DNA of 64,000 bases from Meghimatium bilineatum (lineage: Eukaryota > Mollusca > Gastropoda > Stylommatophora > Philomycidae), in assembly GCA_034231615.1 (NCBI GenBank), contig CM067302.1, positions 13,992,990 through 14,056,989 of the forward strand, written 5' to 3'. Both the position numbers and the translations under genes were made by a program. The notes beneath the pieces were generated by a model. That model searched no databases. It saw nothing but the letters and a program-made list of their open reading frames with translations, and was not told the origin of the DNA. Below, piece by piece: positions 1 to 64,000 of this stretch (the stretch's first letter is position 1; the number at the start of each line of letters is the position of its first letter).

Positions 1-26
1 TTTTCAACACATCTCATAAATGTATC

Positions 27-36
27 TACCGGTAGT
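27..36. repeat. Representative perfect 10-base palindrome ctaccggtag
   Basis: ctaccggtag equals its own reverse complement. It occurs once in each of the fifteen domain A anchor monomers. In other monomers the same position reads ctactagtag (also a perfect palindrome, common in domain B, e.g. about 29,797), ctaccagtag (one step from both) or ctgccagtag. Confidence 0.85.
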
Positions 37-223
37 TTCTTATTAGAAATATTTTTTTTATTTTCTTTTTCAATCTTTTCAACACATATCATAAATGTAT
101 CTACCGATAAATGATCACTAGAAATATATCTTTTTATTTTCTTTGTCAAACTTTTCAACACATTTCATAAATGTATATAGTTTATCATTAGAAATATTTT
201 TGTTTATTTTCTTGTTCAAACTT

Positions 224-243
224 TTCAACACATTTCATAAATG
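224..243. repeat. Representative hairpin-like dyad within the monomer core
   Basis: In the core ttcaacacatttcataaatg the six-base arms acattt and aaatgt flank a cat loop where the following base is t. In this particular monomer the next bases read gaat, so one following position differs. The same dyad is present in nearly every catttcataaatgt monomer and is weakened by one mismatch in catctcataaatgt monomers. Many tandem copies of short dyads could favour cruciform structure or a dimeric binding protein; that function is inference. Confidence 0.6.
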
Positions 244-889
244 AATATAGTTTATCATTAGAAATATATATTTTTAATTTTCTTGTTCAAACTTTTCAAC
301 ACATTTCATAAATGTATATAGTTTATCACTGGAAATATATTTTTAAATTTTCTTTTCCAAACATTTCACCACATTTCATAAATGTATCTAGTTTATCATT
401 AGAAATATATTTTTTTGTTTTTGAAAATTTTCAACACATTTCATAAATGTATCTACCAGTAGTTTATTATTAGAAATATATTTTTTGATTTTGTTTTTCA
501 AACTTTTCAATACATCTCATAAATGTATATACCAGTAGTTTATTATTAGAAATATATTTTTTCATTTTCTTGTTCAAACTTTTCAACATATTTCATAAAT
601 GTATCTAGTTTATCATTAGAAATATATTTTTTGATTTTGTTACTTTTCAACACATTTCATAAATGTATCTAGTTTATCACTAAAAATATATTTTTTGATT
701 TTCTTTTCCAAACTTTTCAACATATTTCATAAATGTATCTAGTTTATCACTAGAAATATATTTTTTGATTTTCTTTTCCAAACTTTTCAACACATTTCAT
801 AAATGTATCTAGTTGATCAATAGAAATTTATTTTTTGATTTTCTTTTTCAAACTTTTCAACACATTTCATAAATGTATCTAGTTTATCA

Positions 890-1084
890 TTAGAAATATT
901 TTTTTTTATTTTCTTTTTCAAACTTTTCAACACATCTCATAAATGTATCTACCGGTAGTTTCTTATTAGAAATATTTTTTTTTCTTTCTTTTTCAATCTT
1001 TTCAACACATATCATAAATGTATCTACCGATAAATGATCACTAGAAATATATCTTTTTATTTTCTTTGTCAAACTTTTCAACAC
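890..1084 (-). other. Repeat-derived 64-codon open frame, representative of ten identical translations
   Basis: Read on the - strand, two 75-base monomers and part of a third stay in frame and give a Lys/Glu-rich peptide with the repeated pattern DTFM-CVEK. The same translation recurs at 4,524, 6,437, 7,301, 9,215, 11,124, 13,854, 15,827 and 22,091. Versions differing by one or a few residues or by a shifted end lie at 1,682, 2,597, 20,250 and 23,209. The start ATG is simply the tail of a neighbouring monomer, and the stop is the next out-of-frame monomer. No start context, signal sequence or domain was recognised. Identity among copies is explained by array homogenisation. I regard it as non-coding. 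Confidence 0.6.
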
Positions 1085-1740
1085 ATTTCATAAATGTATA
1101 TAGTTTATCATTAGAAATATTTTTGTTTATTTTCTTTTTCAATCTTTTCAACACATATCATAAATGTATCTACCGATAAATGATCACTAGAAATATATCT
1201 TTTTATTTTCTTTGTCAAACTTTTCAACACATTTCATAAATGTATATAGTTTATCATTAGAAATATTTTTGTTTATTTTCTTGTTCAAACTTTTCAACAC
1301 ATTTCATAAGTGTATATAGTTTATTAATAGAAATTTATTTTTTGATTTTACTTTTTGAAATTTTTCAACACATTTCATAAATGTATATAGTTTATCATTA
1401 GAAATATTTTTTTTTTATTTTCTTGTTCAAACTTATCAACATATTTCATAAATGTATCTAGTTTATCACTGGAAATATATTTTTTGATTTTCTTTTTCAA
1501 ACTTTTCAACACATCACATAAATGTATCTGCCAGTAGATTATCACTAAAAATATATCTTTTCATTTTCTTTTTCAAACTTTTCAACACATTTCATAAATG
1601 TATATAGTTTATCACTAGAAATATATTTTTTGATTTTCTTTTCCAAACTTTTCAACACATTTCATTAGTGTATATAGTTCATCAATAGAAATATATTTTT
1701 TGATTTTCTTTTTCAAACTTTTCAACACATTTCATAAATG

Positions 1741-3459
1741 TATCTACCGGTAGTTTCTTATTAGAAATATTTTTTTTATTTTCATTTTCAATCTTTTCAA
1801 CACATATCATAAATGTATCTACAGATAAATGATCACTAGAAATATATCTTTTTATTTTCTTTGTCAAACTTTTCAACACATTTCATAAATGTATATAGTT
1901 TATCATTAGAAATATTTTTGTTTATTTTCTTGTTCAAACTTTTCAACACATTTCATAAATGAATATAGTTTATCATTAGAAATATATATTTTTAATTTTC
2001 TTGTTCAAACTTTTCAACACATTTCATAAATGTATATAGTTTATCACTGGAAATATATTTTTAAATTTTCTTTTCCAAACTTTTCACCACATTTCATAAA
2101 TGTATCTAGTTTATCATTAGAAATATATTTTTTTGTTTTTGAAAATTTTCAACACATTTCATAAATGTATCTACCAGTAGTTTATTATTAGAAATATATT
2201 TTTTGATTTTCTTTTTCAAACTTTTCAATACATCTCATAAATGTATATACCAGTAGTTTATTATTAGAAATATATTTTTTCATTTTCTTGTTCAAACTTT
2301 TCAACATATTTCATAAATGTATCTAGTTTATCATTAGAAATATATTTTTTGATTTTGTTACTTTTCAACACATTTCATAAATGTATCTAGTTTATCACTA
2401 GAAATATATTTTTTGATTTTCTTTTCCAAACTTTTCAACATATTTCATAAATGTATCTAGTTTATCACTAGAAATATATTTTTTGATTTTCTTTTCCAAA
2501 CTTTTCAACACATTTCATAAATGTATCTAGTTGATCAATAGAAATTTATTTTTTGATTTTCTTTTTCAAACTTTTCAACACATTTCATAAATGTATCTAG
2601 TTTATCATTAGAAATATTTTTTTTTTATTTTCTTTTTCAAACTTTTCAACACATCTCATAAATGTATCTACCGGTAGTTTCTTATTAGAAATATTTTTTT
2701 TTCTTTCTTTTTCAATCTTTTCAACACATATCATAAATGTATCTACCGATAAATGATCACTAGAAATATATCTTTTTATTTTCTTTGTCAAACTTTTCAA
2801 CACATTTCATAAATGTATATAGTTTATCATTAGAAATATTTTTGTTTATTTTCTTTTTCAATCTTTTCAACACATATCATAAATGTATCTACCGATAAAT
2901 GATCACTAGAAATATATCTTTTTATTTTCTTTGTCAAACTTTTCAACACATTTCATAAATGTATATAGTTTATCATTAGAAATATTTTTGTTTATTTTCT
3001 TGTTCAAACTTTTCAACACATTTCATAAGTGTATATAGTTTATTAATAGAAATTTATTTTTTGATTTTACTTTTTGAAATTTTTCAACACATTTCATAAA
3101 TGTATATAGTTTATCATTAGAAATATTTTTTTTTTATTTTCTTGTTCAAACTTATCAACATATTTCATAAATGTATCTAGTTTATCACTAGAAATATATT
3201 TTTTGATTTTCTTTTTCAAACTTTTCAACACATCACATAAATGTATCTGCCAGTAGATTATCACTAAAAATATATCTTTTCATTTTCTTTTTCAAACTTT
3301 TCAACACATTTCATAAATGTATATAGTTTATCACTAGAAATATATTTTTTGATTTTCTTTTCCAAACTTTTCAACACATTTCATTAGTGTATATAGTTCA
3401 TCAATAGAAATATATTTTTTGATTTTCATTTTCAAACTTTTCAACACATTTCATAAATG
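1741..3459 (+). repeat. Domain A edge unit, second 1.72 kb copy
   Basis: This is the second copy of the 1,719 base edge period. It parallels the first until about 3,455. There the first copy enters a ccggtag monomer, while this one continues with ctagtttatcattag and passes into the 1.91 kb unit type. It carries the edge-specific cataaatgaatatag (1960) and ttttcaccacattt (about 2085) variants. Confidence 0.83.
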
Positions 3460-4585
3460 TATCTAGTTTATCATTAGAAATATATTTTTTTATTTTCTTT
3501 TCCAAACTTTTACACACAGTTCATAAATGTATCTAGTTTATCATTAGAAATATATTTTTTTGTTTTTGAAACTTTTCAACACATTTCATAAATGTATCTA
3601 CCAGTAGTTTATTATTAGAAATATATTTTTTGATTTTCTTTTTCAAACTTTTCAATACATCTCATAAATGTATCTACCAGTAGATTATCACTAGAAATAT
3701 ATCTTTTCATTTTCTTTTTCAAACTTTTCAACACATTTCATAAATGTATATAGTTTATCATTAAGGATATTTTTTTTTATTTTCTTGTTCAAACTTTTCA
3801 ACATATTTAATAAATGTATATAGTTTATCACTAGAAATATATTTTTTTATTTTCTTGTTCAAACTTTTCAACACATTTCATAAATGTATCTAGTTTATCA
3901 TTAGAAATATATTTTTCGATTTTGAAACTTTTCAACACATTTCATAAATGTATCTATCTACCAGTAGTTTATTATTAGAAATATATTTTTTCATTTTCTT
4001 GTTCAAACTTTTCAACATATTTCATAAATGTATCTAGTTTATCATTAGAAATATATTTTTTGATTTTGTTACTTTTCAACACATTTCATAAATGTATCTA
4101 GTTTATCACTAGAAATATATTTTTTGATTTTCTTTTCCAAACTTTTCAACATATTTCATAAATGTATCTAGTTTATCACTAGAAATATATTTTTTGATTT
4201 TCTTTTCCAAACTTTTCAACACATTTCATAAATGTATCTAGTTTATCATTAGAAATATATTTTTTGATTTTGAAACTTTTCAACACATTTCATAAATGTA
4301 TATAGTTTATCATTAGAAATATTTGTATTTTATTTTCTTGTTCAAACTTTTCAACATATTTAATAAATGTATATAGTTTATCACTAGAAATATATTTTTT
4401 GATTTTCTTTTCCAAACTTTTCAACACATTTCATAAATGTATGTAGTTGATCAATAGAAATTTATTTTTTGATTTTCTTTTTCAAACTTTTCAACACATT
4501 TCATAAATGTATCTAGTTTATCATTAGAAATATTTTTTTTTATTTTCTTTTTCAAACTTTTCAACACATCTCATAAATGTATCTA
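2671..4585 (+). repeat. Domain A higher-order unit, 1,915 bases
   Basis: This is an anchor-to-anchor unit. It begins in the ACCGGT monomer and passes through two ccgataaatgatcactag monomers. It then carries cataagtg, ctgccagtag, cagttcataaatg and ctatctaccag monomers, and ends with a tagttgatcaatag monomer just before the next anchor. It is the first of the regular 1.91 kb series, although its left part is shared with the edge unit. A private change gtatgtagttgatc lies near 4,440. Confidence 0.82.
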
Positions 4586-6498
4586 CCGGTAGTTTCTTAT
4601 TAGAAATATTTTTTTTTCTTTCTTTTTCAATCTTTTCAACACATATCATAAATGTATCTACCGATAAATGATCACTAGAAATATATCTTTTTATTTTCTT
4701 TGTCAAACTTTTCAACACATTTCATAAATGTATATAGTTTATCATTAGAAATATTTTTGTTTATTTTCTTTTTCAATCTTTTCAACACATATCATAAATG
4801 TATCTACCGATAAATGATCACTAGAAATATATCTTTTTATTTTCTTTGTCAAACTTTTCAACACATTTCATAAATGTATATAGTTTATCATTAGAAATAT
4901 TTTTGTTTATTTTCTTGTTCAAACTTTTCAACACATTTCATAAGTGTATATAGTTTATTAATAGAAATTTATTTTTTGATTTTACTTTTTGAAATTTTTC
5001 AACACATTTCATAAATGTATATAGTTTATCATTAGAAATATTTTTTTTTTATTTTCCTTCCAAACTTTTCAACATATTTCATAAATGTATCTAGTTTATC
5101 ACTAGAAATATATTTTTTGATTTTCTTTTTCAAACTTTTCAACACATCACATAAATGTATCTGCCAGTAGATTATCACTAAAAATATATCTTTTCATTTT
5201 CTTTTTCAAACTTTTCAACACATTTCATAAATGTATATAGTTTATCACTAGAAATATATTTTTTGATTTTCTTTTCCAAACTTTTCAACACATTTCATTA
5301 GTGTATATAGTTGATCAATAGAAATATATTTTTTGATTTTCTTTTTCAAACTTTTCAACACATTTCATAAATGTATCTAGTTTATCATTAGAAATATATT
5401 TTTTTATTTTCTTTTCCAAACTTTTCAACACAGTTCATAAATGTATCTAGTTTATCATTAGAAATATATTTTTTTGTTTTTGAAACTTTTCAACACATTT
5501 CATAAATGTATCTACCAGTAGTTTATTATTAGAAATATATTTTTTGATTTTCTTTTTCAAACTTTTCAATACATCTCATAAATGTATCTACCAGTAGATT
5601 ATCACTAGAAATATATCTTTTCATTTTCTTTTTCAAACTTTTCAACACATTTCATAAATGTATATAGTTTATCATTAAGGATATTTTTTTTTATTTTCTT
5701 GTTCAAACTTTTCAACATATTTAATAAATGTATATAGTTTATCACTAGAAATATATTTTTTTATTTTCTTGTTCAAACTTTTCAACACATTTCATAAATG
5801 TATCTAGTTTATCATTAGAAATATATTTTTCGATTTTGAAACTTTTCAACACATTTCATAAATGTATCTATCTACCAGTAGTTTATTATTAGAAATATAT
5901 TTTTTCATTTTCTTGTTCAAACTTTTCAACATATTTCATAAATGTATCTAGTTTATCATTAGAAATATATTTTTTGATTTTGTTACTTTTCAACACATTT
6001 CATAAATGTATCTAGTTTATCACTAGAAATATATTTTTTGATTTTCTTTTACAAACTTTTCAACATATTTCATAAATGTATCTAGTTTATCACTAGAAAT
6101 ATAATTTTTGATTTTCTTTTCCAAATTTTCAACACATTTCATAAATGTATCTAGTTTATCATTAGAAATATATTTTTTGATTTTGAAACTTTTCAACACA
6201 TTTCATAAATGTATATAGTTTATCATTAGAAATATTTGTATTTTATTTTCTTGTTCAAACTTTTCAACATATTTAATAAATGTATATAGTTTATCACTAG
6301 AAATATATTTTTTGATTTTCTTTTCCAAACTTTTCAACACATTTCATAAATGTATCTAGTTGATCAATAGAAATTTATTTTTTGATTTTCTTTTTCAAAC
6401 TTTTCAACACATTTCATAAATGTATCTAGTTTATCATTAGAAATATTTTTTTTTATTTTCTTTTTCAAACTTTTCAACACATCTCATAAATGTATCTA
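4586..6498 (+). repeat. Domain A higher-order unit, 1,913 bases
   Basis: This is a full-length regular unit with the same monomer order as the one before. Minor private changes include cttttacaaac near 6,050, a T to A change giving gaaatataattttt near 6,100, and a shortened ccaaattttc near 6,121. From this unit onward bttttccttccaaac-type shortened T/C tracts replace the ttgttcaaactt version seen at the left edge. Confidence 0.82.
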
Positions 6499-7362
6499 CC
6501 GGTAGTTTCTTATTAGAAATATTTTTTTTTCTTTCTTTTTCAATCTTTTCAACACATATCATAAATGTATCTACCGATAAATGATCACTAGAAATATATC
6601 TTTTTATTTTCTTTGTCAAACTTTTCAACACATTTCATAAATGTATATAGTTTATCATTAGAAATATTTTTGTTTATTTTCTTTTTCAATCTTTTCAACA
6701 CATATCATAAATGTATCTACCGATAAATGATCACTAGAAATATATCTTTTTATTTTCTTTGTCAAACTTTTCAACACATTTCATAAATGTATATAGTTTA
6801 TCATTAGAAATATTTTTGTTTATTTTCTTGTTCAAACTTTTCAACACATTTCATAAGTGTATATAGTTTATTAATAGAAATTTATTTTTTGATTTTACTT
6901 TTTGAAATTTTTCAACACATTTCATAAATGTATATAGTTTATCATTAGAAATATTTTTTTTTTATTTTCCTTCCAAACTTTTCAACATATTTCATAAATG
7001 TATCTAGTTTATCACTAGAAATATATTTTTTGATTTTCTTTTTCAAACTTTTCAACACATCACATAAATGTATCTGCCAGTAGATTATCACTAAAAATAT
7101 ATCTTTTCATTTTCTTTTTCAAACTTTTCAACACATTTCATAAATGTATATAGTTTATCACTAGAAATATATTTTTTGATTTTCTTTTCCAAACTTTTCA
7201 ACACATTTCATAAATGTATCTAGTTGATCAATAGAAATTTATTTTTTGATTTTCTTTTTCAAACTTTTCAACACATTTCATAAATGTATCTAGTTTATCA
7301 TTAGAAATATTTTTTTTTATTTTCTTTTTCAAACTTTTCAACACATCTCATAAATGTATCTA
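6499..7362 (+). repeat. Domain A higher-order unit, truncated to 864 bases
   Basis: The left part matches the regular unit for about 700 bases. At about 7,150 to 7,215 the sequence jumps to the cataaatgtatctagttgatcaatagaaattt monomer that normally ends the unit, skipping about 1,050 bases. The following unit is again full length, so this is an internal deletion or unequal exchange between related monomers about 1 kb apart. Confidence 0.85.
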
Positions 7363-9276
7363 CCGGTAGTTTCTTATTAGAAATATTTTTTTTTCTTTCT
7401 TTTTCAATCTTTTCAACACATATCATAAATGTATCTACCGATAAATGATCACTAGAAATATATCTTTTTATTTTCTTTGTCAAACTTTTCAACACATTTC
7501 ATAAATGTATATAGTTTATCATTAGAAATATTTTTGTTTATTTTCTTTTTCAATCTTTTCAACACATATCATAAATGTATCTACCGATAAATGATCACTA
7601 GAAATATATCTTTTTATTTTCTTTGTCAAACTTTTCAACACATTTCATAAATGTATATAGTTTATCATTAGAAATATTTTTGTTTATTTTCTTGTTCAAA
7701 CTTTTCAACACATTTTATAAGTGTATATAGTTTATTAATAGAAATTTATTTTTTGATTTTACTTTTTGAAATTTTTCAACACATTTCATAAATGTATATA
7801 GTTTATCATTAGAAATATTTTTTTTTTATTTTCCTTCCAAACTTTTCAACATATTTCATAAATGTATCTAGTTTATCACTAGAAATATATTTTTTGATTT
7901 TCTTTTTCAAACTTTTCAACACATCACATAAATGTATCTGCCAGTAGATTATCACTAAAAATATATCTTTTCATTTTCTTTTTCAAACTTTTCAACACAT
8001 TTCATAAATGTATATAGTTTATCACTAGAAATATATTTTTTGATTTTCTTTTCCAAACTTTTCAACACATTTCATTAGTGTATATAGTTGATCAATAGAA
8101 ATATATTTTTTGATTTTCTTTTTCAAACTTTTCAACACATTTCATAAATGTATCTAGTTTATCATTAGAAATATATTTTTTTATTTTCTTTTCCAAACTT
8201 TTCAACACAGTTCATAAATGTATCTAGTTTATCATTAGAAATATATTTTTTTGTTTTTGAAACTTTTCAACACATTTCATAAATGTATCTACCAGTAGTT
8301 TATTATTAGAAATATATTTTTTGATTTTCTTTTTCAAACTTTTCAATACATCTCATAAATGTATCTACCAGTAGATTATCACTAGAAATATATCTTTTCA
8401 TTTTCTTTTTCAAACTTTTCAACACATTTCATAAATGTATATAGTTTATCATTAAGGATATTTTTTTTTATTTTCTTGTTCAAACTTTTCAACATATTTA
8501 ATAAATGTATATAGTTTATCACTAGAAATATATTTTTTTATTTTCTTGTTCAAACTTTTCAACACATTTCATAAATGTATCTAGTTTATCATTAGAAATA
8601 TATTTTTCGATTTTGAAACTTTTCAACACATTTCATAAATGTATCTATCTACCAGTAGTTTATTATTAGAAATATATTTTTTCATTTTCTTGTTCAAACT
8701 TTTCAACATATTTCATAAATGTATCTAGTTTATCATTAGAAATATATTTTTTGATTTTGTTACTTTTCAACACATTTCATAAATGTATCTAGTTTATCAC
8801 TAGAAATATATTTTTTGATTTTCTTTTCCAAACTTTTCAACATATTTCATAAATGTATCTAGTTTATCACTAGAAATATATTTTTTGATTTTCTTTTCCA
8901 AACTTTTCAACACATTTCATAAATGTATCTAGTTTATCATTAGAAATATATTTTTTGATTTTGAAACTTTTCAACACATTTCATAAATGTATATAGTTTA
9001 TCATTAGAAATATTTGTATTTTATTTTCTTGTTCAAACTTTTCAACATATTTAATAAATGTATATAGTTTATCACTAGAAATATATTTTTTGATTTTCTT
9101 TTCCAAACTTTTCAACACATTTCATAAATGTATCTAGTTGATCAATAGAAATTTATTTTTTGATTTTCTTTTTCAAACTTTTCAACACATTTCATAAATG
9201 TATCTAGTTTATCATTAGAAATATTTTTTTTTATTTTCTTTTTCAAACTTTTCAACACATCTCATAAATGTATCTA
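7363..9276 (+). repeat. Domain A higher-order unit, 1,914 bases
   Basis: This is a full-length regular unit that keeps the complete monomer order of the 4,586 unit. One private change is cattttataagtg near 7,711, where the other units read catttcataagtg. Confidence 0.82.
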
Positions 9277-11185
9277 CCGGTAGTTTCTTATTAGAAATAT
9301 TTTTTTTTCTTTCTTTTTCAATCTTTTCAACACATATCATAAATGTATCTACCGATAAATGATCACTAGAAATATATCTTTTTATTTTCTTTGTCAAACT
9401 TTTCAACACATTTCATAAATGTATATAGTTTATCATTAGAAATATTTTTGTTTATTTTCTTTTTCAATCTTTTCAACACATATCATAAATGTATCTACCG
9501 ATAAATGATCACTAGAAATATATCTTTTTATTTTCTTTGTCAAACTTTTCAACACATTTCATAAATGTATATAGTTTATCATTAGAAATATTTTTGTTTA
9601 TTTTCTTGTTCAAACTTTTCAACACATTTCATAAGTGTATATAGTTTATTAATAGAAATTTATTTTTTGATTTTACTTTTTGAAATTTTTCAACACATTT
9701 CATAAATGTATATAGTTTATCATTAGAAATATTTTTTTTTTATTTTCCTTCCAAACTTTTCAACATATTTCATAAATGTATCTAGTTTATCACTAGAAAT
9801 ATATTTTTTGATTTTCTTTTTCAAACTTTTCAACACATCACATAAATGTATCTGCCAGTAGATTATCACTAAAAATATATCTTTTCATTTTCTTTTTCAA
9901 ACTTTTCAACACATTTCATAAATGTATATAGTTTATCACTAGAAATATATTTTTTGATTTTCTTTTCCAAACTTTTCAACACATTTCATTAGTGTATATA
10001 GTTGATCAATAGAAATATATTTTTTGATTTTCTTTTTCAAACTTTTCAACACATTTCATAAATGTATCTAGTTTATCATTAGAAATATATTTTTTTATTT
10101 TCTTTTCCAAACTTTTCAACACAGTTCATAAATGTATCTAGTTTATCATTAGAAATATATTTTTTTGTTTTTGAAACTTTTCAACACATTTCATAAATGT
10201 ATCTACCAGTAGTTTATTATTAGAAATATATTTTTTGATTTTCTTTTTCAAACTTTTCAATACATCTCATAAATGTATCTACCAGTAGATTATCACTAGA
10301 AATATATCTTTTCATTTTCTTTTTCAAACTTTTCAACACATTTCATAAATGTATATAGTTTATCATAAAGAATATTTTTTTTATTTTCTTGTTCAAACTT
10401 TTCAACATATTTAATAAATGTATATAGTTTATCACTAGAAATATATTTTTTTATTTTCTTTCCAAACTTTTCAACACATTTCATAAATGTATCTAGTTTA
10501 TCATTAGAAATATATTTTTTGATTTTCTTTTCCAAACTTTTCAACACATTTCATAAATGTATCTAGTTTATCATTAGAAATATATTTTTTGATTTTTAAA
10601 CTTTTCAACACATTTCATAAATGTATATAGTTTATCATTAGAAATATTTGTATTTTATTTTCTTGTTCAAACTTTTCAACATATTTAATAAATGTATATA
10701 GTTTATCATTAGAAATATATTTTTTGATTTTGTTACTTTTCAACACATTTCATAAATGTATCTAGTTTATCACTAGAAATATATTTTTTGATTTTCTTTT
10801 CCAAACTTTTCAACATATTTCATAAATGTATCTAGTTTATCACTAGAAATATATTTTTTGATTTTCTTTTCCAAACTTTTCAACACATTTCATAAATGTA
10901 TATAGTTTATCATTAGAAATATTTGTATTTTATTTTCTTGTTCAAACTTTTCAACATATTTAATAAATGTATATAGTTTATCACTAGAAATATATTTTTT
11001 GATTTTCTTTTCCAAACTTTTCAACACATTTCATAAATGTATCTAGTTGATCAATAGAAATTTATTTTTTGATTTTCTTTTTCAAACTTTTCAACACATT
11101 TCATAAATGTATCTAGTTTATCATTAGAAATATTTTTTTTTATTTTCTTTTTCAAACTTTTCAACACATCTCATAAATGTATCTA
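9277..11185 (+). repeat. Domain A higher-order unit, 1,909 bases
   Basis: This is a near full-length unit. Its right third is rearranged: from about 10,300 it carries cataaagaatatttttt in place of cattaaggatattt. It also has a 69-base monomer run in which three consecutive units stay in frame on the - strand (10,296 to 10,547), and a gatttttaaacttttc monomer at about 10,590. The length stays close to 1.91 kb because losses and gains balance. Confidence 0.8.
10296..10547 (-). other. Longest repeat-derived open frame, 83 codons, three in-frame 23-residue units
   Basis: On the - strand three successive 69-base monomers stay in frame. They give units that begin YISNDKLDTF, YISSDKLYTF and NILYDKLYTF, each followed by a K-VEKF segment and a Lys/Glu/Asn stretch. 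Near-identical frames lie at 12,205 to 12,450, 12,895 to 13,140 and 19,100 to 19,351, with a broken version at 21,305 to 21,505. Charged 23-residue periodicity would suit a helical protein repeat, but the frame opens and closes inside the satellite and has no separate 5' or 3' part. Most likely non-coding; a relic of a coding repeat is a remote alternative. Confidence 0.55.
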
Positions 11186-23282: not shown

Positions 23283-23940
23283 CCGGTAGTTTCTTATTAG
23301 AAATATTTTTTTTATTTTCTTTTTCAATCTTTTCAACACATATCATAAATGTATCTACCGATAAATGATCACTAGAAATATATCTTTTTATTTTCTTTGT
23401 CAAACTTTTCAACACATTTCATAAATGTATATAGTTTATCATTAGAAATATTTTTGTTTATTTTCTTGTTCAAACTTTTCAACACATTTCATAAATGAAT
23501 ATAGTTTATCATTAGAAATATATATTTTTAATTTTCTTGTTCAAACTTTTCAACATATTTAATAAATGTATATAGTTTATCACTAGAAATATATTTTTAA
23601 ATTTTCTTTTCCAAACTTTTCACCACATTTCATAAATGTATCTAGTTTATCATTAGAAATATATTTTTTTGTTTTTGAAAATTTTCAACACATTTCATAA
23701 ATGTATCTACCAGTAGTTTATTATTAGAAATATATTTTTTGATTTTCTTTTTCAAACTTTTCAACACATTTCATAAATGTATATAGTTTATCACTAGAAA
23801 TATATTTTTTGATTTTCTTTTCCAAGCTTTTCAACACATTTCATAAATGTATCTAGTTTATCATTAGAAATATATTTTTTGATTTTTTTTTCAAACTTTT
23901 CAATACATCTCATAAATGTATATAGTTTATCATTAGAAAT
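23283..23940 (+). repeat. Transition zone from domain A to domain B
   Basis: The last ACCGGT monomer of domain A (23,283) is followed by edge-type monomers: cataaatgaatatag at 23,494 and ttttcaccacattt at about 23,617. At about 23,870 a gatttttttttcaaac tract appears, followed by the first attttgtttaaattttaaac monomer at about 23,942, a marker of domain B. The first caaactgttc monomer is at 24,091 and the first caaacgtttc at 24,151. The change is gradual over a few monomers and contains no unique sequence. Confidence 0.8.
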
Positions 23941-26900
23941 ATATTTTGTTTAAATTTTAAACTTTTCAACACATTTCATAAATGTATCTAGTTTATCATG
24001 AGAAATATATTTTTTATTTTCTTTTTCAAACTTTTCAACACATCTCATAAATGTATCTAGTTTATCATTAGAAATATATTATTTGATTTTCAAACTGTTC
24101 AACACATCTCATAAATGTATCTACCAGTAGAGTATTTTGATTTTATTTTTCAAACGTTTCAACACATCTCATAATAGTTTATTATTAGAAATATATTTTG
24201 ATTTTATTTTTCAAACGTTTCAACACATCTCATAATAGTTTATTATTCGAAATATATTTTTTGATTTTGATACTTCTCAACACATTTCATAAATGTATCT
24301 ACCAGTAGTTTATTATTAGAAATATATTTTGATTTTCTTTTCCAAACTTTTCAACACATTTCATAAGTGTATATAGTTGATGATTAGAAATTTATTTTTT
24401 GATTTTCTTTTTCAAACTTTTCAACACATTTCATAAGTGTATATAGTGTATCAATATAAATTTATTTCTTTGATTTTGAAACTTTTTAACATATTTCAGA
24501 AATGTATCTAGTTTATCATTAGAAATATATTATTTTGATTTTATTTTTCAAACGTTTCAACACATCTCATAATAGTTTATTATTAGAAATATATTTTGAT
24601 TTTATTTTTCAAACGTTTCAACACATCTCATAATAGTTTATTATTAGAAATATATTGTTTGATTTTGATTCTTTTCAACACATTTCATAAATGTATCTAC
24701 CAGTAGTTTATTATTAGAAATATATTTTTATTTTCTTTTCCAAACTTTTCAACACATTTAATAAATGTATCTAGTTTATCATTAGAAATATATATTTTTT
24801 TTTTCAAACTTTTCAACACATCTCATAAATGTATCTAGTTTATCATTAGAAATATATTTTTTTGATTTTCAAACTGTTCAACACATCTCATAAATGTATC
24901 TACCAGTAGAGTATTTTGATTTTATTTTTCAAACGTTTCAACACATCTCATAAATGTATATAGTTTATCACTAGAAATATATTTTTTCATTTTCTTTTCC
25001 AAACTTTTCAACACATTTCATAAATGTATCTAGTTTATCATTAGAAATATATTTTTTGATTTTTTTTCAAACTTTTCAATACATCTCATAAATGTATATA
25101 GTTTATCATTAGAAATATATTTTGTTTAAATTTTAAACTTTTCAACACATTTCATAAATGTATCTAGTTTATCATTAGAAATATATTTTTTATTTTCTTT
25201 TTCAAACTTTTCAACACATCTCATAAATGTATCTAGTTTATCATTAGAAATATATTTTTTTGATTTTCAAACTGTTCAACACATCTCATAAATGTATCTA
25301 CCAGTAGAGTATTTTGATTTTATTTTTCAAACGTTTCAACACATCTCATAATAGTTTATTATTAGAAATATATTTTGATTTTATTTTTCAAACGTTTCAA
25401 CACATCTCATAATAGTTTATTATTAGAAATATATTTTTTGATTTTGATACTTTTCAACACATTTCATAAATGTATCTACCAGTAGTTTATTATTAGAAAT
25501 ATATTTTTATTTTCTTTTCCAAACTTTTCAACACATTTCATAAATGTATCTAGTTTATCATTAGAAATATATTTTTTAAATTTTCAAACTGTTCAACACA
25601 TCTCATAAATGTATCTACCAGTAGAGTATTTTGATTTTATTTTTCAAACGTTTCAACACATCTCATAATAGTTTATTATTAGAAATATATTTTTTGATTT
25701 TGATACTTTTCAACATATTTCAGAAATGTATCTACCAGTAGTTTATTATTAGAAATATATTTTTTGATTTTCTTTTTCAAACTTTTCAACACATCTCATA
25801 AATGTATCTAGTTTATCATTAGAAATATATTTTTTTTATTTTCAAACTGTTCAACACATCTCATAAATGTATCTACCAGTAGAGTATTTTGATTTTATTT
25901 TTCAAACGTTTCAACACATCTCATAATAGTTTATTATTAGAAATATATTTTTTGATTTTGATACTTTTCAACACATTTCATAAATGTATCTACCAGTAGT
26001 TTATTATTAGAAATATATTTTGATTTTCTTTTCCAAACTTTTCAACACATTTCATAAGTGTATATAGTTGATGATTAGAAATTTATTTTTTGATTTTCTT
26101 TTTCAAACTTTTCAACACATTTCATAAGTGTATATAGTGTATCAATATAAATTTATTTCTTTGATTTTGAAACTTTTTAACATATTTCAGAAATGTATCT
26201 AGTTTATCATTAGAAATATATTATTTTGATTTTATTTTTCAAACGTTTCAACACATCTCATAATAGTTTATTATTAGAAATATATTTTGATTTTATTTTT
26301 CAAACGTTTCAACACATCTCATAATAGTTTATTATTAGAAATATATTTTTTGATTTTGATTCTTTTCAACACATTTCATAAATGTATCTACCAGTAGTTT
26401 ATTATTAGAAATATATTTTTATTTTCTTTTCCAAACTTTTCAACACATTTAATAAATGTATCTAGTTTATCATTAGAAATATATATATTTTATTTTTCAA
26501 ACTTTTCAACACATCTCATAAATGTATCTAGTTTATCATTAGAAATATATTTTTTTGATTTTCAAACTGTTCAACACATCTCATAAATGTATCTACCAGT
26601 AGAGTATTTTGATTTTATTTTTCAAACGTTTCAACACATCTCATAATAGTTTATTATTAGAAATATATTTTTTGATTTTGATACTTTTCAACACATCTCA
26701 TAAATTGTATCTACTAGTAGTTTATTATTAGAAATATATTTTTTTATTTTCTTTTTCAAACTTTTCAACACATCTCATAAATGTATCTGCCAGTAGATTA
26801 TCACTAAAAATATATCTTTTCATTTTCTTTTTCAAACTTTTCAACACATTTCATAAATGTATATAGTTTATCACTAGAAATATATTTTTTCATTTTCTTT

Positions 26901-51400: not shown

Positions 51401-52146
51401 ATATTTTTATTTTCTTTTCCAAACTTTTCAACACATTTCATAAATGTATCTAGTTTATCATTAGAAATATATTTTTTTAATTTTCAAACTGTTCAACACA
51501 TCTCATAAATGTATCTACCAGTAGAGTATTTTGATTTTATTTTTCAAACGTTTCAACACATCTCATAATAGTTTATTATTAGAAATATATTTTGATTTTA
51601 TTTTTCAAACGTTTCAACACATCTCATAATAGTTTATTATTAGAAATATATTTTTTGATTTTGATACTTTTCAACATATTTCAGAAATGTATCTACCAGT
51701 AGTTTATTATTAGAAATATATTTTTTGATTTTCTTTTTCAAACTTTTCAACACATCTCATAAATGTATCTAGTTTATCATTAGAAATATATTTTTTTAAT
51801 TTTCAAACTGTTCAACACATCTCATAAATGTATCTACCAGTAGAGTATTTTGATTTTATTTTTCAAACGTTTCAACACATCTCATAATAGTTTATTATTA
51901 GAAATATATTTTTTGATTTTGATACTTTTCAACACATTTCATAAATGTATCTACTAGTAGTTTATTATTAGAAATATATTTTTTGATTTTCTTTTTCAAA
52001 CTTTTCAAAACATCTCATAAATGTATCTGCCAGTAGATTATCACTAAAAATATATCTTTTCATTTTCTTTTTCAAACTTTTCAACACATTTCATAAATGT
52101 ATATAGTTTATCACTAGAAATATATTTTTTGATTTTCTTTTCCAAA
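48459..52146 (+). repeat. B3 super-unit of 3,688 bases (1,490 + 1,099 + 1,099)
   Basis: The first part (48,459 to 49,948) is a 1,490-base form that retains the full gtttaaattttaaac monomer and adds a section with cataaatatatctag (about 49,562). Two 1,099-base units follow (49,949 and 51,048). The private gatttgtttttc change at about 48,503 recurs at 52,191, exactly 3,688 later, so the super-unit was copied as a block. Confidence 0.87.
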
Positions 52147-53636: not shown

Positions 53637-54809
53637 CTTTTCATAAATGTATCTAGTTTATCATTAGAAATATATTTTTTGATTTTTTTTTCAAACTTTT
53701 CAATACATCTCATAAATGTATATAGTTTATCATTAGAAATATATTTTGTTTAAATTTTAAACTTTTCAACACATTTCATAAATGTATCTAGTTTATCATT
53801 AGAAATATATTTTTTATTTTCTTTTTCAATCTTTTCAACACATCTCATAAATGTATCTAGTTTATCATTAGAAATATATTTTTTTGATTTTCAAACTGTT
53901 CAACACATCTCATAAATGTATCTACCAGTAGAGTATTTTGATTTTATTTTTCAAACGTTTCAACACATCTCATAATAGTTTATTATTAGAAATATATTTT
54001 GATTTTATTTTTCAAACGTTTCAACACATCTCATAATAGTTTATTATTAGAAATATATTTTTTGATTTTGATACTTTTCAACATATTTCAGAAATGTATC
54101 TACCAGTAGTTTATTATTAGAAATATATTTTTTGATTTTCTTTTTCAAACTTTTCAACACATCTCATAAATGTATCTAGTTTATCATTAGAAATATATTT
54201 TTTTTATTTTCAAACTGTTCAACACATCTCATAAATGTATCTACCAGTAGAGTATTTTGATTTTATTTTTCAAACGTTTCAACACATCTCATAATAGTTT
54301 ATTATTAGAAATATATTTTTTGATTTTGATACTTTTCAACACATTTCATAAATGTATCTACCAGTAGTTTATTATTAGAAATATATTTTTATTTTCTTTT
54401 CCAAACTTTTCAACACATTTCATAAATATATCTAGTTTATCATTAGAAATATATTTTTTTAATTTTCAAACTGTTCAACACATCTCATAAATGTATCTAC
54501 CAGTAGAGTATTTTGATTTTATTTTTCAAACGTTTCAACACATCTCATAATAGTTTATTATTAGAAATATATTTTTTGATTTTGATACTTTTCAACACAT
54601 TTCATAAATGTATCTACCAGTAGTTTATTATTAGAAATATATTTTTTGATTTTCTTTTTCAAACTTTTCAACACATCTCATAAATGTATCTGCCAGTAGA
54701 TTATCACTAAAAATATATCTTTTCATTTTCTTTTTCAAACTTTTCAACACATTTCATAAATGTATATAGTTTATCACTAGAAATATATTTTTTGATTTTC
54801 TTTTCCAAA
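53637..54809 (+). repeat. B3 unit, 1,173 bases
   Basis: This hybrid unit has no aaatttcaaactgttc fusion; it carries gtttaaattttaaac followed by a caatcttttcaac monomer at about 53,827. It ends with the cataaatatatctag section and a ctgccagtag monomer at 54,693. A similar caatcttttc change occurs near 45,613, 55,003, 57,023 and 61,299. Confidence 0.8.
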
Positions 54810-56340
54810 CTTTTCATAAATGTATCTAGTTTATCATTAGAAATATATTTTTTGATTTTTTTTTCAAACTTTTCAATACATCTCATAAATGTATATAGTT
54901 TATCATTAGAAATATATTTTGTTTAAATTTTAAACTTTTCAACACATTTCATAAATGTATCTAGTTTATCATTAGAAATATATTTTTTATTTTCTTTTTC
55001 AATCTTTTCAACACATCTCATAAATGTATCTAGTTTATCATTAGAAATATATTTTTTTGATTTTCAAACTGTTCAACACATCTCATAAATGTATCTACCA
55101 GTAGAGTATTTTGATTTTATTTTTCAAACGTTTCAACACATCTCATAATAGTTTATTATTAGAAATATATTTTGATTTTATTTTTCAAACGTTTCAACAC
55201 ATCTCATAATAGTTTATTATTAGAAATATATTTTTTGATTTTGATACTTTTCAACATATTTCAGAAATGTATCTACCAGTAGTTTATTATTAGAAATATA
55301 TTTTTTGATTTTCTTTTTCAAACTTTTCAACACATCTCATAAATGTATCTAGTTTATCATTAGAAATATATTTTTTTTATTTTCAAACTGTTCAACACAT
55401 CTCATAAATGTATCTACCAGTAGAGTATTTTGATTTTATTTTTCAAACGTTTCAACACATCTCATAATAGTTTATTATTAGAAATATATTTTTTGATTTT
55501 GATACTTTTCAACACATTTCATAAATGTATCTACTAGTAGTTTATTATTAGAAATATATTTTTTGATTTTCTTTTTCAAACTTTTCAACACATCTCATAA
55601 ATGTATCTGCCAGTAGATTATCACTAAAAATATATCTTTTCATTTTCTTTTTCAAACTTTTCAACACATTTCATAAATGTATCTAGTTTATCACTAGAAA
55701 TGTATTTTGTTTAAATTTTAAACTTTTCAACACATTTCATAAATGTATCTAGTTTATCATTAGAAATATATTTTTTATTTTCTTTTTTCAAACTTTTCAA
55801 CACATCTCATAAATGTATCTAGTTTATCATTAGAAATATATTTTTTTGATTTTCAAACTGTTCAACACATCTCATAAATGTATCTACCAGTAGAGTATTT
55901 TGATTTTATTTTTCAAACGTTTCAACACATCTCATAATAGTTTATTTTTAGAAATATATTTTGATTTTATTTTTCAAACGTTTCAACACATCTCATAATA
56001 GTTTATTATTAGAAATATATTTTTTGATTTTGATACTTTTCAACACATTTCATAAATGTATCTACCAGTAGTTTATTATTAGAAATATATTTTTATTTTA
56101 TTTTCCAAACTTTTCAACACATTTCATAAATATATCTAGTTTATCATTAGAAATATATTTTTTAAATTTTCAAACTGTTCAACACATCTCATAAATGTAT
56201 CTACCAGTAGAGTATTTTGATTTTATTTTTCAAACGTTTCAACACATCTCATAATAGTTTATTATTAGAAATATATTTTGATTTTATTTTTCAAACGTTT
56301 CAACACATCTCATAATAGTTTATTATTAGAAATATATTTT
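54693..56340 (+). repeat. Long-range duplicate block, left copy (offset 6,299)
   Basis: Markers ctgccagtag at 54,693 and 55,610, the anchor cttttcataaatg at 54,810, the extra T in cttttttcaaac near 55,783 and tttatttttagaaat near 55,942 all recur 6,299 bases later, at 60,992, 61,909, 61,109, about 62,082 and about 62,242. Homology stops at about 56,375 and 62,680: this copy continues with ctaccagtag, the other with ctactagtag. Confidence 0.86.
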
Positions 56341-58046
56341 TTTGATTTTGATACTTTTCAACACATTTCATAAATGTATCTACCAGTAGTTTATTATTAG
56401 AAATATATTTTTATTTTCTTTTCCAAACTTTTCAACACATTTCATAAATATATCTAGTTTATCATTAGAAATATATTTTTTTAATTTTCAAACTGTTCAA
56501 CACATCTCATAAATGTATCTACCAGTAGAGTATTTTGATTTTATTTTTCAAACGTTTCAACACATCTCATAATAGTTTATTATTAGAAATATATTTTTTG
56601 ATTTTGATACTTTTCAACACATTTCATAAATGTATCTACCAGTAGTTTATTATTAGAAATATATTTTTTGATTTTCTTTTTCAAACTTTTCAACACATCT
56701 CATAAATGTATCTGCCAGTAGATTATCACTAAAAATATATCTTTTCATTTTCTTTTTCAAACTTTTCAACACATTTCATAAATGTATATAGTTTATCACT
56801 AGAAATATATTTTTTGATTTTCTTTTCCAAACTTTTCATAAATGTATCTAGTTTATCATTAGAAATATATTTTTTGATTTTTTTTTCAAACTTTTCAATA
56901 CATCTCATAAATGTATATAGTTTATCATTAGAAATATATTTTGTTTAAATTTTAAACTTTTCAACACATTTCATAAATGTATCTAGTTTATCATTAGAAA
57001 TATATTTTTTATTTTCTTTTTCAATCTTTTCAACACATCTCATAAATGTATCTAGTTTATCATTAGAAATATATTTTTTTGATTTTCAAACTGTTCAACA
57101 CATCTCATAAATGTATCTACCAGTAGAGTATTTTGATTTTATTTTTCAAACGTTTCAACACATCTCATAATAGTTTATTATTAGAAATATATTTTGATTT
57201 TATTTTTCAAACGTTTCAACACATCTCATAATAGTTTATTATTAGAAATATATTTTTTGATTTTGATACTTTTCAACATATTTCAGAAATGTATCTACCA
57301 GTAGTTTATTATTAGAAATATATTTTTTGATTTTCTTTTTCAAACTTTTCAACACATCTCATAAATGTATCTAGTTTATCATTAGAAATATATTTTTTTT
57401 ATTTTCAAACTGTTCAACACATCTCATAAATGTATCTACCAGTAGAGTATTTTGATTTTATTTTTCAAACGTTTCAACACATCTCATAATAGTTTATTAT
57501 TAGAAATATATTTTTTGATTTTGATACTTTTCAACACATTTCATAAATGTATCTACTAGTAGTTTATTATTAGAAATATATTTTTTGATTTTCTTTTTCA
57601 AACTTTTCAACACATCTCATAAATGTATCTGCCAGTAGATTATCACTAAAAATATATCTTTTCATTTTCTTTTTCAAACTTTTCAACACATTTCATAAAT
57701 GTATCTAGTTTATCACTAGAAATGTATTTTGTTTAAATTTTAAACTTTTCAACACATTTCATAAATGTATCTAGTTTATCATTAGAAATATATTTTTTAT
57801 TTTCTTTTTTCAAACTTTTCAACACATCTCATAAATGTATCTAGTTTATCATTAGAAATATATTTTTTTGATTTTCAAACTGTTCAACACATCTCATAAA
57901 TGTATCTACCAGTAGAGTATTTTGATTTTATTTTTCAAACGTTTCAACACATCTCATAATAGTTTATTATTAGAAATATATTTTGATTTTATTTTTCAAA
58001 CGTTTCAACACATCTCATAATAGTTTATTATTAGAAATATATTTTT

Positions 58047-59406
58047 TTGATTTTGATACTTTTCAACACATTTCATAAATGTATCTACTAGTAGTTTATT
58101 ATTAGAAATATATTTTTTGATTTTCTTTTTCAAACTTTTCAACACATCTCATAAATGTATCTGCAAGTAGATTATCACTAAAAATATATCTTTTCATTTT
58201 CTTTTTCAAACTTTTCAACACATTTCATAAATGTATCTAGTTTATCACTAGAAATGTATTTTGTTTAAATTTTAAACTTTTCAACACATTTCATAAATGT
58301 ATCTAGTTTATCATTAGAAATATATTTTTTTAATTTTCAAACTGTTCAACACATCTCATAAATGTATCTACCAGTAGAGTATTTTGATTTTATTTTTCAA
58401 ACGTTTCAACACATCTCATAATAGTTTATTATTAGAAATATATTTTTTGATTTTGATACTTTTCAACACATTTCATAAATGTATCTACTAGTAGTTTATT
58501 ATTAGAAATATATTTTTTGATTTTCTTTTTCAAACTTTTCAACACATTTCATAAATGTATCTGCCAGTAGATTATCACTAAAAATATATCTTTTCATTTT
58601 CTTTTTCAAACTTTTCAACACATTTCATAAATGTATCTAGTTTATCACTAGAAATGTATTTTGTTTAAATTTTAAACTTTTCAACACATTTCATAAATGT
58701 ATCTAGTTTATCATTAGAAATATATTTTTTATTTTCTTTTTCAAACTTTTCAACACATCTCATAAATGTATCTAGTTTATCATTAGAAATATATTTTTTT
58801 TATTTTCAAACTGTTCAACACATCTCATAAATGTAGCTACCAGTAGAGTATTTTGATTTTATTTTTCAAACGTTTCAACACATCTCATAATAGTTTATTA
58901 TTAGAAATATATTTTGATTTTATTTTTCAAACGTTTCAACACATCTCATAATAGTTTATTATTAGAAATATATTTTTTGATTTTGATACTTTTCAACACA
59001 TTTCATAAATGTATCTACCAGTAGTTTATTATTAGAAATATATTTTTATTTTATTTTCCAAACTTTTCAACACATTTCATAAATATATCTAGTTTATCAT
59101 TAGAAATATATTTTTTTAATTTTCAAACTGTTCAACACATCTCATAAATGTATCTACCAGTAGAGTATTTTGATTTTATTTTTCAAACGTTTCAACACAT
59201 CTCATAATAGTTTATTATTAGAAATATATTTTGATTTTATTTTTCAAACGTTTCAACACATCTCATAATAGTTTATTATTAGAAATATATTTTTTGATTT
59301 TGATACTTTTCAACACATTTCATAAATGTATCTACTAGTAGTTTATTATTAGAAATATATTTTTTGATTTTCTTTTTCAAACTTTTCAACACATCTCATA
59401 AATGTA
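58047..59406 (+). repeat. Long-range duplicate block, left copy (offset 4,594)
   Basis: Markers ctgcaagtag at 58,164, ctgccagtag at 58,564 and the private atgtagctacc at 58,831 recur at 62,758, 63,158 and 63,425, all 4,594 apart. Differences are few: one base in a T/C tract near 62,799 (tttttaaaac), catttcataatag near 63,793 against catctcataatag, and tatttttatttt near 63,831 against tattttgatttt. Confidence 0.86.
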
Positions 59407-61000
59407 TCTGCAAGTAGATTATCACTAAAAATATATCTTTTCATTTTCTTTTTCAAACTTTTCAACACATTTCATAAATGTATCTAGTTTATCACTAGAA
59501 ATGTATTTTGTTTAAATTTTAAACTTTTCAACACATTTCATAAATGTATCTAGTTTATCATTAGAAATATATTTTTTAAATTTTCAAACTGTTCAACACA
59601 TCTCATAAATGTATCTACCAGTAGAGTATTTTGATTTTATTTTTCAAACGTTTCAACACATCTCATAATAGTTTATTATTAGAAATATATTTTTTGATTT
59701 TGATACTTTTCAACACATTTCATAAATGTATCTACCAGTAGTTTATTATTAGAAATATATTTTTTGATTTTCTTTTTCAAACTTTTCAACACATCTCATA
59801 AATGTATCTGCCAGTAGATTATCACTAAAAATATATCTTTTCATTTTCTTTTTCAAACTTTTCAACACATTTCATAAATGTATATAGTTTATCATTAGAA
59901 ATATATTTTTTATTTTCTTTTTCAAACTTTTCAACACATCTCATAAATGTATCTAGTTTATCATTAGAAATATATTTTTTTGATTTTCAAACTGTTCAAC
60001 ACATCTCATAAATGTATCTACCAGTAGAGTATTTTGATTTTATTTTTCAAACGTTTCAACACATCTCATAATAGTTTATTTTTAGAAATATATTTTGATT
60101 TTATTTTTCAAACGTTTCAACACATCTCATAATAGTTTATTATTAGAAATATATTTTTTGATTTTGATACTTTTCAACACATTTCATAAATGTATCTACC
60201 AGTAGTTTATTATTAGAAATATATTTTTATTTTATTTTCCAAACTTTTCAACACATTTCATAAATATATCTAGTTTATCATTAGAAATATATTTTTTTAA
60301 TTTTCAAACTGTTCAACACATCTCATAAATGTATCTACCAGTAGAGTATTTTGATTTTATTTTTCAAACGTTTCAACACATCTCATAATAGTTTATTATT
60401 AGAAATATATTTTGATTTTATTTTTCAAACGTTTCAACACATCTCATAATAGTTTATTATTAGAAATATATTTTTTGATTTTGATACTTTTCAACACATT
60501 TCATAAATGTATCTACTAGTAGTTTATTATTAGAAATATATTTTTTGATTTTCTTTTTCAAACTTTTCAACACATCTCATAAATGTATCTGCAAGTAGAT
60601 TATCACTAAAAATATATCTTTTCATTTTCTTTTTCAAACTTTTCAACACATTTCATAAATGTATCTAGTTTATCACTAGAAATGTATTTTGTTTAAATTT
60701 TAAACTTTTCAACACATTTCATAAATGTATCTAGTTTATCATTAGAAATATATTTTTTAAATTTTCAAACTGTTCAACACATCTCATAAATGTATCTACC
60801 AGTAGAGTATTTTGATTTTATTTTTCAAACGTTTCAACACATCTCATAATAGTTTATTATTAGAAATATATTTTTTGATTTTGATACTTTTCAACACATT
60901 TCATAAATGTATCTACCAGTAGTTTATTATTAGAAATATATTTTTTGATTTTCTTTTTCAAACTTTTCAACACATCTCATAAATGTATCTGCCAGTAGAT
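58164..61000 (+). repeat. Series of 400-base ctgcaagtag / ctgccagtag pairs
   Basis: The ctgcaagtag variant at 58,164, 59,411 and 60,592 (and again at 62,758) is each time followed exactly 400 bases later by a ctgccagtag monomer. The second and third pairs lie 1,181 apart. The C to A change marks a lineage restricted to the last 6 kb of the window, evidence of its recent spread. Confidence 0.83.
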
Positions 61001-62640
61001 TATCACTAAAAATATATCTTTTCATTTTCTTTTTCAAACTTTTCAACACATTTCATAAATGTATATAGTTTATCACTAGAAATATATTTTTTGATTTTCT
61101 TTTCCAAACTTTTCATAAATGTATCTAGTTTATCATTAGAAATATATTTTTTGATTTTTTTTTCAAACTTTTCAATACATCTCATAAATGTATATAGTTT
61201 ATCATTAGAAATATATTTTGTTTAAATTTTAAACTTTTCAACACATTTCATAAATGTATCTAGTTTATCATTAGAAATATATTTTTTATTTTCTTTTTCA
61301 ATCTTTTCAACACATCTCATAAATGTATCTAGTTTATCATTAGAAATATATTTTTTTGATTTTCAAACTGTTCAACACATCTCATAAATGTATCTACCAG
61401 TAGAGTATTTTGATTTTATTTTTCAAACGTTTCAACACATCTCATAATAGTTTATTATTAGAAATATATTTTGATTTTATTTTTCAAACGTTTCAACACA
61501 TCTCATAATAGTTTATTATTAGAAATATATTTTTTGATTTTGATACTTTTCAACATATTTCAGAAATGTATCTACCAGTAGTTTATTATTAGAAATATAT
61601 TTTTTGATTTTCTTTTTCAAACTTTTCAACACATCTCATAAATGTATCTAGTTTATCATTAGAAATATATTTTTTTTATTTTCAAACTGTTCAACACATC
61701 TCATAAATGTATCTACCAGTAGAGTATTTTGATTTTATTTTTCAAACGTTTCAACACATCTCATAATAGTTTATTATTAGAAATATATTTTTTGATTTTG
61801 ATACTTTTCAACACATTTCATAAATGTATCTACTAGTAGTTTATTATTAGAAATATATTTTTTGATTTTCTTTTTCAAACTTTTCAACACATCTCATAAA
61901 TGTATCTGCCAGTAGATTATCACTAAAAATATATCTTTTCATTTTCTTTTTCAAACTTTTCAACACATTTCATAAATGTATCTAGTTTATCACTAGAAAT
62001 GTATTTTGTTTAAATTTTAAACTTTTCAACACATTTCATAAATGTATCTAGTTTATCATTAGAAATATATTTTTTATTTTCTTTTTTCAAACTTTTCAAC
62101 ACATCTCATAAATGTATCTAGTTTATCATTAGAAATATATTTTTTTGATTTTCAAACTGTTCAACACATCTCATAAATGTATCTACCAGTAGAGTATTTT
62201 GATTTTATTTTTCAAACGTTTCAACACATCTCATAATAGTTTATTTTTAGAAATATATTTTGATTTTATTTTTCAAACGTTTCAACACATCTCATAATAG
62301 TTTATTATTAGAAATATATTTTTTGATTTTGATACTTTTCAACACATTTCATAAATGTATCTACCAGTAGTTTATTATTAGAAATATATTTTTATTTTAT
62401 TTTCCAAACTTTTCAACACATTTCATAAATATATCTAGTTTATCATTAGAAATATATTTTTTAAATTTTCAAACTGTTCAACACATCTCATAAATGTATC
62501 TACCAGTAGAGTATTTTGATTTTATTTTTCAAACGTTTCAACACATCTCATAATAGTTTATTATTAGAAATATATTTTGATTTTATTTTTCAAACGTTTC
62601 AACACATCTCATAATAGTTTATTATTAGAAATATATTTTT
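60992..62640 (+). repeat. Long-range duplicate block, right copy (offset 6,299)
   Basis: This is the counterpart of 54,693 to 56,340, with all private markers conserved. At its right end it switches without a visible seam into the block that matches 58,047 onward (offset 4,594). It is therefore the left half of a recombinant mosaic. Confidence 0.86.
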
Positions 62641-64000
62641 TTGATTTTGATACTTTTCAACACATTTCATAAATGTATCTACTAGTAGTTTATTATTAGA
62701 AATATATTTTTTGATTTTCTTTTTCAAACTTTTCAACACATCTCATAAATGTATCTGCAAGTAGATTATCACTAAAAATATATCTTTTCATTTTCTTTTT
62801 AAAACTTTTCAACACATTTCATAAATGTATCTAGTTTATCACTAGAAATGTATTTTGTTTAAATTTTAAACTTTTCAACACATTTCATAAATGTATCTAG
62901 TTTATCATTAGAAATATATTTTTTTAATTTTCAAACTGTTCAACACATCTCATAAATGTATCTACCAGTAGAGTATTTTGATTTTATTTTTCAAACGTTT
63001 CAACACATCTCATAATAGTTTATTATTAGAAATATATTTTTTGATTTTGATACTTTTCAACACATTTCATAAATGTATCTACTAGTAGTTTATTATTAGA
63101 AATATATTTTTTGATTTTCTTTTTCAAACTTTTCAACACATTTCATAAATGTATCTGCCAGTAGATTATCACTAAAAATATATCTTTTCATTTTCTTTTT
63201 CAAACTTTTCAACACATTTCATAAATGTATCTAGTTTATCACTAGAAATGTATTTTGTTTAAATTTTAAACTTTTCAACACATTTCATAAATGTATCTAG
63301 TTTATCATTAGAAATATATTTTTTATTTTCTTTTTCAAACTTTTCAACACATCTCATAAATGTATCTAGTTTATCATTAGAAATATATTTTTTTTATTTT
63401 CAAACTGTTCAACACATCTCATAAATGTAGCTACCAGTAGAGTATTTTGATTTTATTTTTCAAACGTTTCAACACATCTCATAATAGTTTATTATTAGAA
63501 ATATATTTTGATTTTATTTTTCAAACGTTTCAACACATCTCATAATAGTTTATTATTAGAAATATATTTTTTGATTTTGATACTTTTCAACACATTTCAT
63601 AAATGTATCTACCAGTAGTTTATTATTAGAAATATATTTTTATTTTATTTTCCAAACTTTTCAACACATTTCATAAATATATCTAGTTTATCATTAGAAA
63701 TATATTTTTTTAATTTTCAAACTGTTCAACACATCTCATAAATGTATCTACCAGTAGAGTATTTTGATTTTATTTTTCAAACGTTTCAACACATTTCATA
63801 ATAGTTTATTATTAGAAATATATTTTTATTTTATTTTTCAAACGTTTCAACACATCTCATAATAGTTTATTATTAGAAATATATTTTTTGATTTTGATAC
63901 TTTTCAACACATTTCATAAATGTATCTACTAGTAGTTTATTATTAGAAATATATTTTTTGATTTTCTTTTTCAAACTTTTCAACACATCTCATAAATGTA
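62641..64000 (+). repeat. Long-range duplicate block, right copy (offset 4,594), cut by window end
   Basis: This is the counterpart of 58,047 to 59,406. It runs to the last base of the window, inside a cataaatgta core, so both the duplicate and the array continue beyond. Confidence 0.86.

Follow-up and report, generated by a model that had tools for sequence, protein, structure and literature searches.

An ordered satellite array in the middle of slug chromosome 5 as candidate centromere DNA

We found that a stretch of 64,000 nucleotides from chromosome 5 (C5) of Meghimatium bilineatum (C5:13992990-14056989; hereafter the window) occupies the middle of an array of about 188 kb formed by one AT-rich satellite family. 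The C5 block is built in the manner of centromere satellites, and we describe its structure, age gradient, partial locus specificity and abundance. Our preferred explanation, which we hold with moderate confidence, is that the array is centromeric or immediately pericentromeric DNA of chromosome 5, with unequal exchange or conversion inside it keeping the copies similar. We regard it as candidate centromere DNA, with a role at the centromere that is plausible and unproven.

The window is a single satellite array

TRF reported the whole window as one tandem array with a period of about 70. Cutting at the monomer heads (953 anchors) gave 952 complete monomers across the window, each spacing being 57–80 bp, which leaves no room for a unique segment or a transposon. 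This agrees with the original prediction that the 64 kb are without unique sequence.

Positions 1–64000, + strand: part of the satellite array, identified by TRF, monomer spacing, composition and flanking pieces.

The monomers run in a single orientation without inversion, also as predicted: an 11-mer of the monomer, with up to two mismatches, had 814 forward and 7 reverse matches, and a search for inverted repeats of at least 40 bp (20-bp exact seed) found none within the window. The satellite is about 80% A+T, with a G+C content of 19–20% at every 2-kb step of the window. A 25-base core occurs in 462 exact copies within the window, far beyond chance, and its letters in backwards order have no occurrence in the whole genome. 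The 64-kb window contains no open reading frame of 100 or more amino acids and no Rfam family at the gathering threshold, and searches with window positions 1–4000 and with the 25-base core returned no phage, plasmid or viral-contig matches. The window thus has the properties of satellite DNA, namely a long head-to-tail array, non-coding monomers and high genome abundance. The CENP-B box consensus had no match in the 64 kb at up to one mismatch. Hairpin stability in five monomers gave z-scores from −1.74 to +0.69, which do not support a centromere model based on hairpins or dyads.

Monomer variants form two higher-order-repeat domains

Although the prediction of a single monomer family was correct, the array is not uniform. 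Among the 952 monomers there are only 154 distinct sequences, and clustering by edit distance groups these into 30 types. The order of these types is strongly constrained, with a conditional entropy of 1.17 bits compared with 3.70 bits (s.d. 0.02) in 200 shuffles. A short form, TATCTAG or TATATAG, is present in 478 of the 952 monomers, and 249 have a longer form, CTACC(A/G)GTAG or CTGCC(A/G)GTAG, at the same place in the monomer; the remaining 225 fit neither motif. The types are arranged in two ordered domains.

Positions 1–23681, + strand: left higher-order-repeat domain, with 13 types absent from the right domain.
Positions 23682–24095, + strand: domain junction, with monomer types common to both domains.
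Positions 24096–64000, + strand: right higher-order-repeat domain, with 11 types absent from the left domain.

The last left-only type starts at 23617 and the first right-only type at 24096; the right-only types include deletion variants of 57, 60 and 61 bp. In the left domain, 80-mers recur mostly at 1.7–1.9, 2.7–2.8 and 0.7–0.9 kb, and those of the right domain recur at about 1.1–1.2 kb among other spacings. As in higher-order repeats, variants recur in order and multi-monomer copies are nearly identical: for 16 of the 26 1-kb window blocks that we sampled, the sampled C5 array holds another copy at 99.7–100% identity, and the other 10 have a best copy there of only 93.3–98.6%. The type order contains no clean repetition of a single unit, blocks of monomers having been lost and doubled between copies. 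With a 700-bp query from the left domain, all 121 of 121 matches fell at C5:13.919–14.017 Mb (best 40 of 3439 candidates). A 600-bp query from the start of the right domain matched C5 best and, among the best candidates scored, nine other contigs at about 76–85%.

The chromosome 5 block has a homogenised core

Extension confirmed that both window edges lie inside repeats. Flanking pieces place the whole array at about 13,902,220–14,089,794, so that it extends beyond the window by about 90.8 kb on the left and 32.8 kb on the right, counting the inserts. The block is located mid-chromosome, at about 55% of the 25.65-Mb length, and non-satellite DNA adjoins it at both ends. All but about 48 kb of this span was read as sequence, and search matches fell in each remaining part; in the sampled pieces the monomers all have one orientation, and there is no N. 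Among the best candidates of five DNA searches, this was the only block on chromosome 5, a count that is a lower bound.

To describe homogenisation we used the twin share, which is the fraction of monomers with an identical twin inside the same piece, each piece being at most 10 kb long. This share was 0.71–0.95 in the six 10-kb pieces covering window bases 1–60000, compared with 0.44 (13.900 Mb) and 0.29 (14.085 Mb) in the pieces at the array ends, which hold fewer monomers. These values accord with the large homogenised satellite locus that had been predicted. Left of the window the share was 0.51 at 13.930 Mb and 0.74–0.89 from 13.950 to 13.993 Mb, and right of it 0.90 at 14.057 Mb and 0.70 at 14.070 Mb. 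Because of the lower monomer number in the end pieces, we also compared random sets of 35 monomers. Their twin share was 0.18 at 13.900 Mb, 0.23 at 13.930 Mb, 0.38–0.52 from 13.950 to 13.993 Mb, 0.39–0.70 in the window, 0.64 at 14.057 Mb, 0.39 at 14.070 Mb and 0.27 at 14.085 Mb. The lowest window value, 0.39, belongs to the piece with the domain junction and is the same as that of the 14.07-Mb piece. Blocks of 1 kb at the array ends are mostly 86–97% identical to their best copy, with one at 13,907,500 reaching 99.6%. The age gradient, in which the core is more alike and the ends are more diverged, is not clean. A core that is more alike than the ends is predicted by turnover from a homogenising centre.

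Beyond the right end of the array, 100 N at C5:14.150–14.160 Mb, about 60–70 kb away, are probably a scaffold gap. A minisatellite with a unit of about 41–42 bp lies at C5:14,300,563–14,302,493, and another short tandem repeat, with a unit of about 32 bp, was seen by eye at C5:14.400–14.401 Mb. We considered the minisatellite as a rival centromere repeat and rejected it: one of its 25-mers has 47 exact copies in the genome, all of them there, compared with 102,541 for the satellite family.

The array carries two pogo-type elements towards its right end

The absence of a transposon insert, another part of the original prediction, holds within the window; farther right, the same array contains a pair of pogo-type elements.

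C5:14,070,848–14,073,925: pogo-type element 1, within the satellite and close to the right array end.
C5:14,086,509–14,088,615: pogo-type element 2, within the satellite and close to the right array end.

By eye, CCGTTAAATTC and its inverse form the boundaries of both elements, which have TA on either side. Element 1 has an open transposase frame of 440 amino acids with DDE_1, HTH_Tnp_Tc5 and BrkDBD domains, and a PDB search with this transposase gave no match. The ends of element 2 are 95–97% alike to those of element 1 over 960 and 509 bp, and its middle is different. CENP-B is thought to derive from the pogo superfamily. An origin of the satellite from pogo-element ends was rejected, the 11-bp terminal motif being absent from the window.

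The family occupies many chromosome interiors

The assembly has 32 contigs, of which 25 are of chromosome size and seven are small. Scaling the exact genome copies of the 25-base core (102,541) by the density in the window gave a family total of about 14.2 Mb of array, or 0.88% of the genome in this 1.6-Gb assembly. To locate the arrays, we combined five DNA searches (best 39 or 40 candidates each) with two pattern listings (the first 100 of 102,541 and the first 100 of 272 places), and merged places within about 1 Mb by hand into one locus. This best-match sample contains at least 41 loci on 22 of the 25 chromosomes. As lower bounds, there are five loci on C2 (spread over about 50 Mb), four on C3, three on C20, two on each of ten others and one on each of nine (C4, C5, C6, C7, C11, C14, C17, C19 and C23); no place on C13, C22 or C24 was among the matches listed. 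A first impression of one locus per chromosome was overturned by the two to five loci on 13 of the 22 chromosomes. Centromeric satellites of monocentric species usually form a single main block on each chromosome, although this is not strictly defining, and the family departs from this pattern. The predicted 'centromere core or heterochromatin block' is a possible reading of this satellite locus, whose family does not form one block per chromosome in this assembly.

The 41 sampled loci tend towards chromosome middles, with a mean folded position of 0.67 compared with 0.5 expected (KS p 0.0003), a test that is only indicative for a best-match sample. None lies within 2 Mb of a chromosome end (2.7 expected) and one lies within 5 Mb (6.8 expected); measured along the chromosome, the loci are spread between 0.11 and 0.94 of its length. 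The matches are listed apparently in contig order, starting at C1:42.75 Mb, so exact copies seem to be missing from the initial 42.7 Mb of C1. Of 113 monomers taken from 11 other places, the C5 sample contains only 4 in exact form. There are also 184 70-mers common to C5 and other chromosomes, so locus specificity is incomplete.

Several other sequences were observed around these loci. An identical 70-bp flank had raised the idea of a duplicated block on C2 (54.0 Mb) and C18 (5.888 Mb), which we rejected when 551 bp more proved to be a dispersed element. Its copies at C18:5.888 Mb and C2:53.992 Mb are 94% alike over 463 bp, and the element stops exactly at the satellite on C18 only, not on C2. 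The AT-rich flank of the C1 array (C1:42.747 Mb) holds a fragment that scores 23.0 bits for Ank_4 against a Pfam cut-off of 22.7; the integrase-like look of a C1 flank fragment found no Pfam support. On C2, about 0.7 Mb from the chromosome end, a COX1-like fragment (C2:121,989,805–121,990,428) has five TGA codons and is open throughout under the invertebrate mitochondrial code. This fragment, which we take to be gastropod-like in look, is probably mitochondrial DNA in the nucleus, and ND2- and ND4-like stretches were seen by eye upstream of it.

Discussion

The centromere reading of the C5 array is favoured by the finding of a single block on this chromosome, its mid-chromosome position, its young core and older edges, and its high abundance. 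Unequal exchange or conversion inside the array would keep copying multi-monomer blocks and would leave older copies at the array ends, as in centromeric satellites elsewhere, and the array would bear centromeric or heterochromatic chromatin. On other chromosomes, the additional blocks would then be pericentromeric or interstitial relatives, some possibly being contigs misplaced by Hi-C scaffolding. Multiple blocks per chromosome, the lack of a CENP-B box within one mismatch, the ordinary hairpin stability, the imperfect age gradient, the incomplete locus specificity and the orientation changes on C25 count against the centromere reading, and the 13 chromosomes with two to five loci weaken the equation of one array with one centromere.

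The extra blocks may be either real interstitial heterochromatin or misplaced contigs. It is possible, although we are doubtful, that the whole family is an interstitial heterochromatin satellite with many chromosome-interior blocks, from tens of kb up to about 190 kb in size, and that centromeres lie elsewhere or at only some of the blocks. The multiplicity of loci fits this account, as do blocks set within other DNA: the block edges at C9:31.40 Mb and C18:5.888 Mb pass into other DNA without any N (1.3–1.5 kb read), and the C2:54.0-Mb block, of at most about 58 kb, has non-satellite DNA on both sides in point samples. Yet interstitial heterochromatin sits poorly with the bias of the loci to chromosome middles, their rarity near ends and the nine chromosomes on which a single block was seen (lower bounds). 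The gap-free edges at C9 and C18 argue, in turn, against one true array per chromosome with the extra loci being satellite-bearing contigs misplaced by scaffolding, which we consider improbable. According to the part of the genome paper available to us, the assembly was made from HiFi reads averaging 18.6 kb, with 3D-DNA run at -r 0, and has 2,526 contigs with a contig N50 of 1.36 Mb (PMC10770140), so satellite contigs may be misplaced. On C25, neighbouring satellite stretches change orientation, as misplacement could explain. The number of loci rises weakly with contig number, but this correlation is not significant (Spearman 0.32, p 0.12; with length, 0.20, p 0.35), and C10 and C12, with 38 and 42 contigs, have two loci each as well.

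Several spaced blocks per chromosome could also be kinetochore units of polycentric or holocentric chromosomes, a reading to which we give very little weight. Holocentric chromosomes have been suggested for the slug Laevicaulis alte, in the text accessible to us on the basis of entropy and Hi-C patterns (PMC13336835). However, the stylommatophoran Trochoidea caroni has two-armed chromosomes, metacentric to subtelocentric, in the portion of the report that we consulted (PMC12427301), and the number of satellite blocks in M. bilineatum differs from chromosome to chromosome, with perhaps just one on nine of them. We find it just as hard to credit that the spaced, separately homogenised blocks are multiple kinetochore units or competing centromeres, of which chromosome 5 would have kept just one.

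The monomer provides a ready FISH probe and a CENP-A mapping target, and it could test the recent holocentric claim for L. alte (PMC13336835). The M. bilineatum genome paper lists seven unanchored scaffolds besides the pseudo-chromosomes, and 'centromer' is absent from its main text as available to us (PMC10770140). In a paper on Deroceras laeve, as far as we had access to it, unplaced scaffolds are supposed to contain centromeric repeats. A literature search with the 25-base core sequence found nothing, and we found no centromere satellite described for a land slug or snail (Stylommatophora) in a search with subscription journals mostly outside its scope. Within this literature, the satellite is of a known kind and apparently undescribed.

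Primate alpha satellite consists of AT-rich tandem monomers of 171 bp, arranged in ordered higher-order repeats and megabase blocks. The slug array resembles it in its AT-rich monomers, ordered variants, homogenised core with older ends, transposons at the end and locus-specific units. It differs in its monomer of 57–80 bp rather than 171 bp, a block of about 188 kb rather than megabases, the lack of a CENP-B box at up to one mismatch and the several blocks on many chromosomes. Repeat-based holocentromeres, such as the Tyba arrays of Rhynchospora, likewise have a single satellite family that forms several separate blocks along each chromosome, whereas the slug blocks are far fewer, larger and uneven between chromosomes. 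PcH-Sat of the limpet Patella caerulea is also a gastropod satellite DNA; in the part of the description available to us it has a proposed SINE origin, which sets it apart by description from the slug monomer, for which we found no origin (PMC11121367). The satellites of Crassostrea gigas, as described in the accessible part of that study, are similarly molluscan and occur at many places in the genome (PMC8268682), whereas in the slug a single family of about 14 Mb forms long arrays in chromosome interiors.
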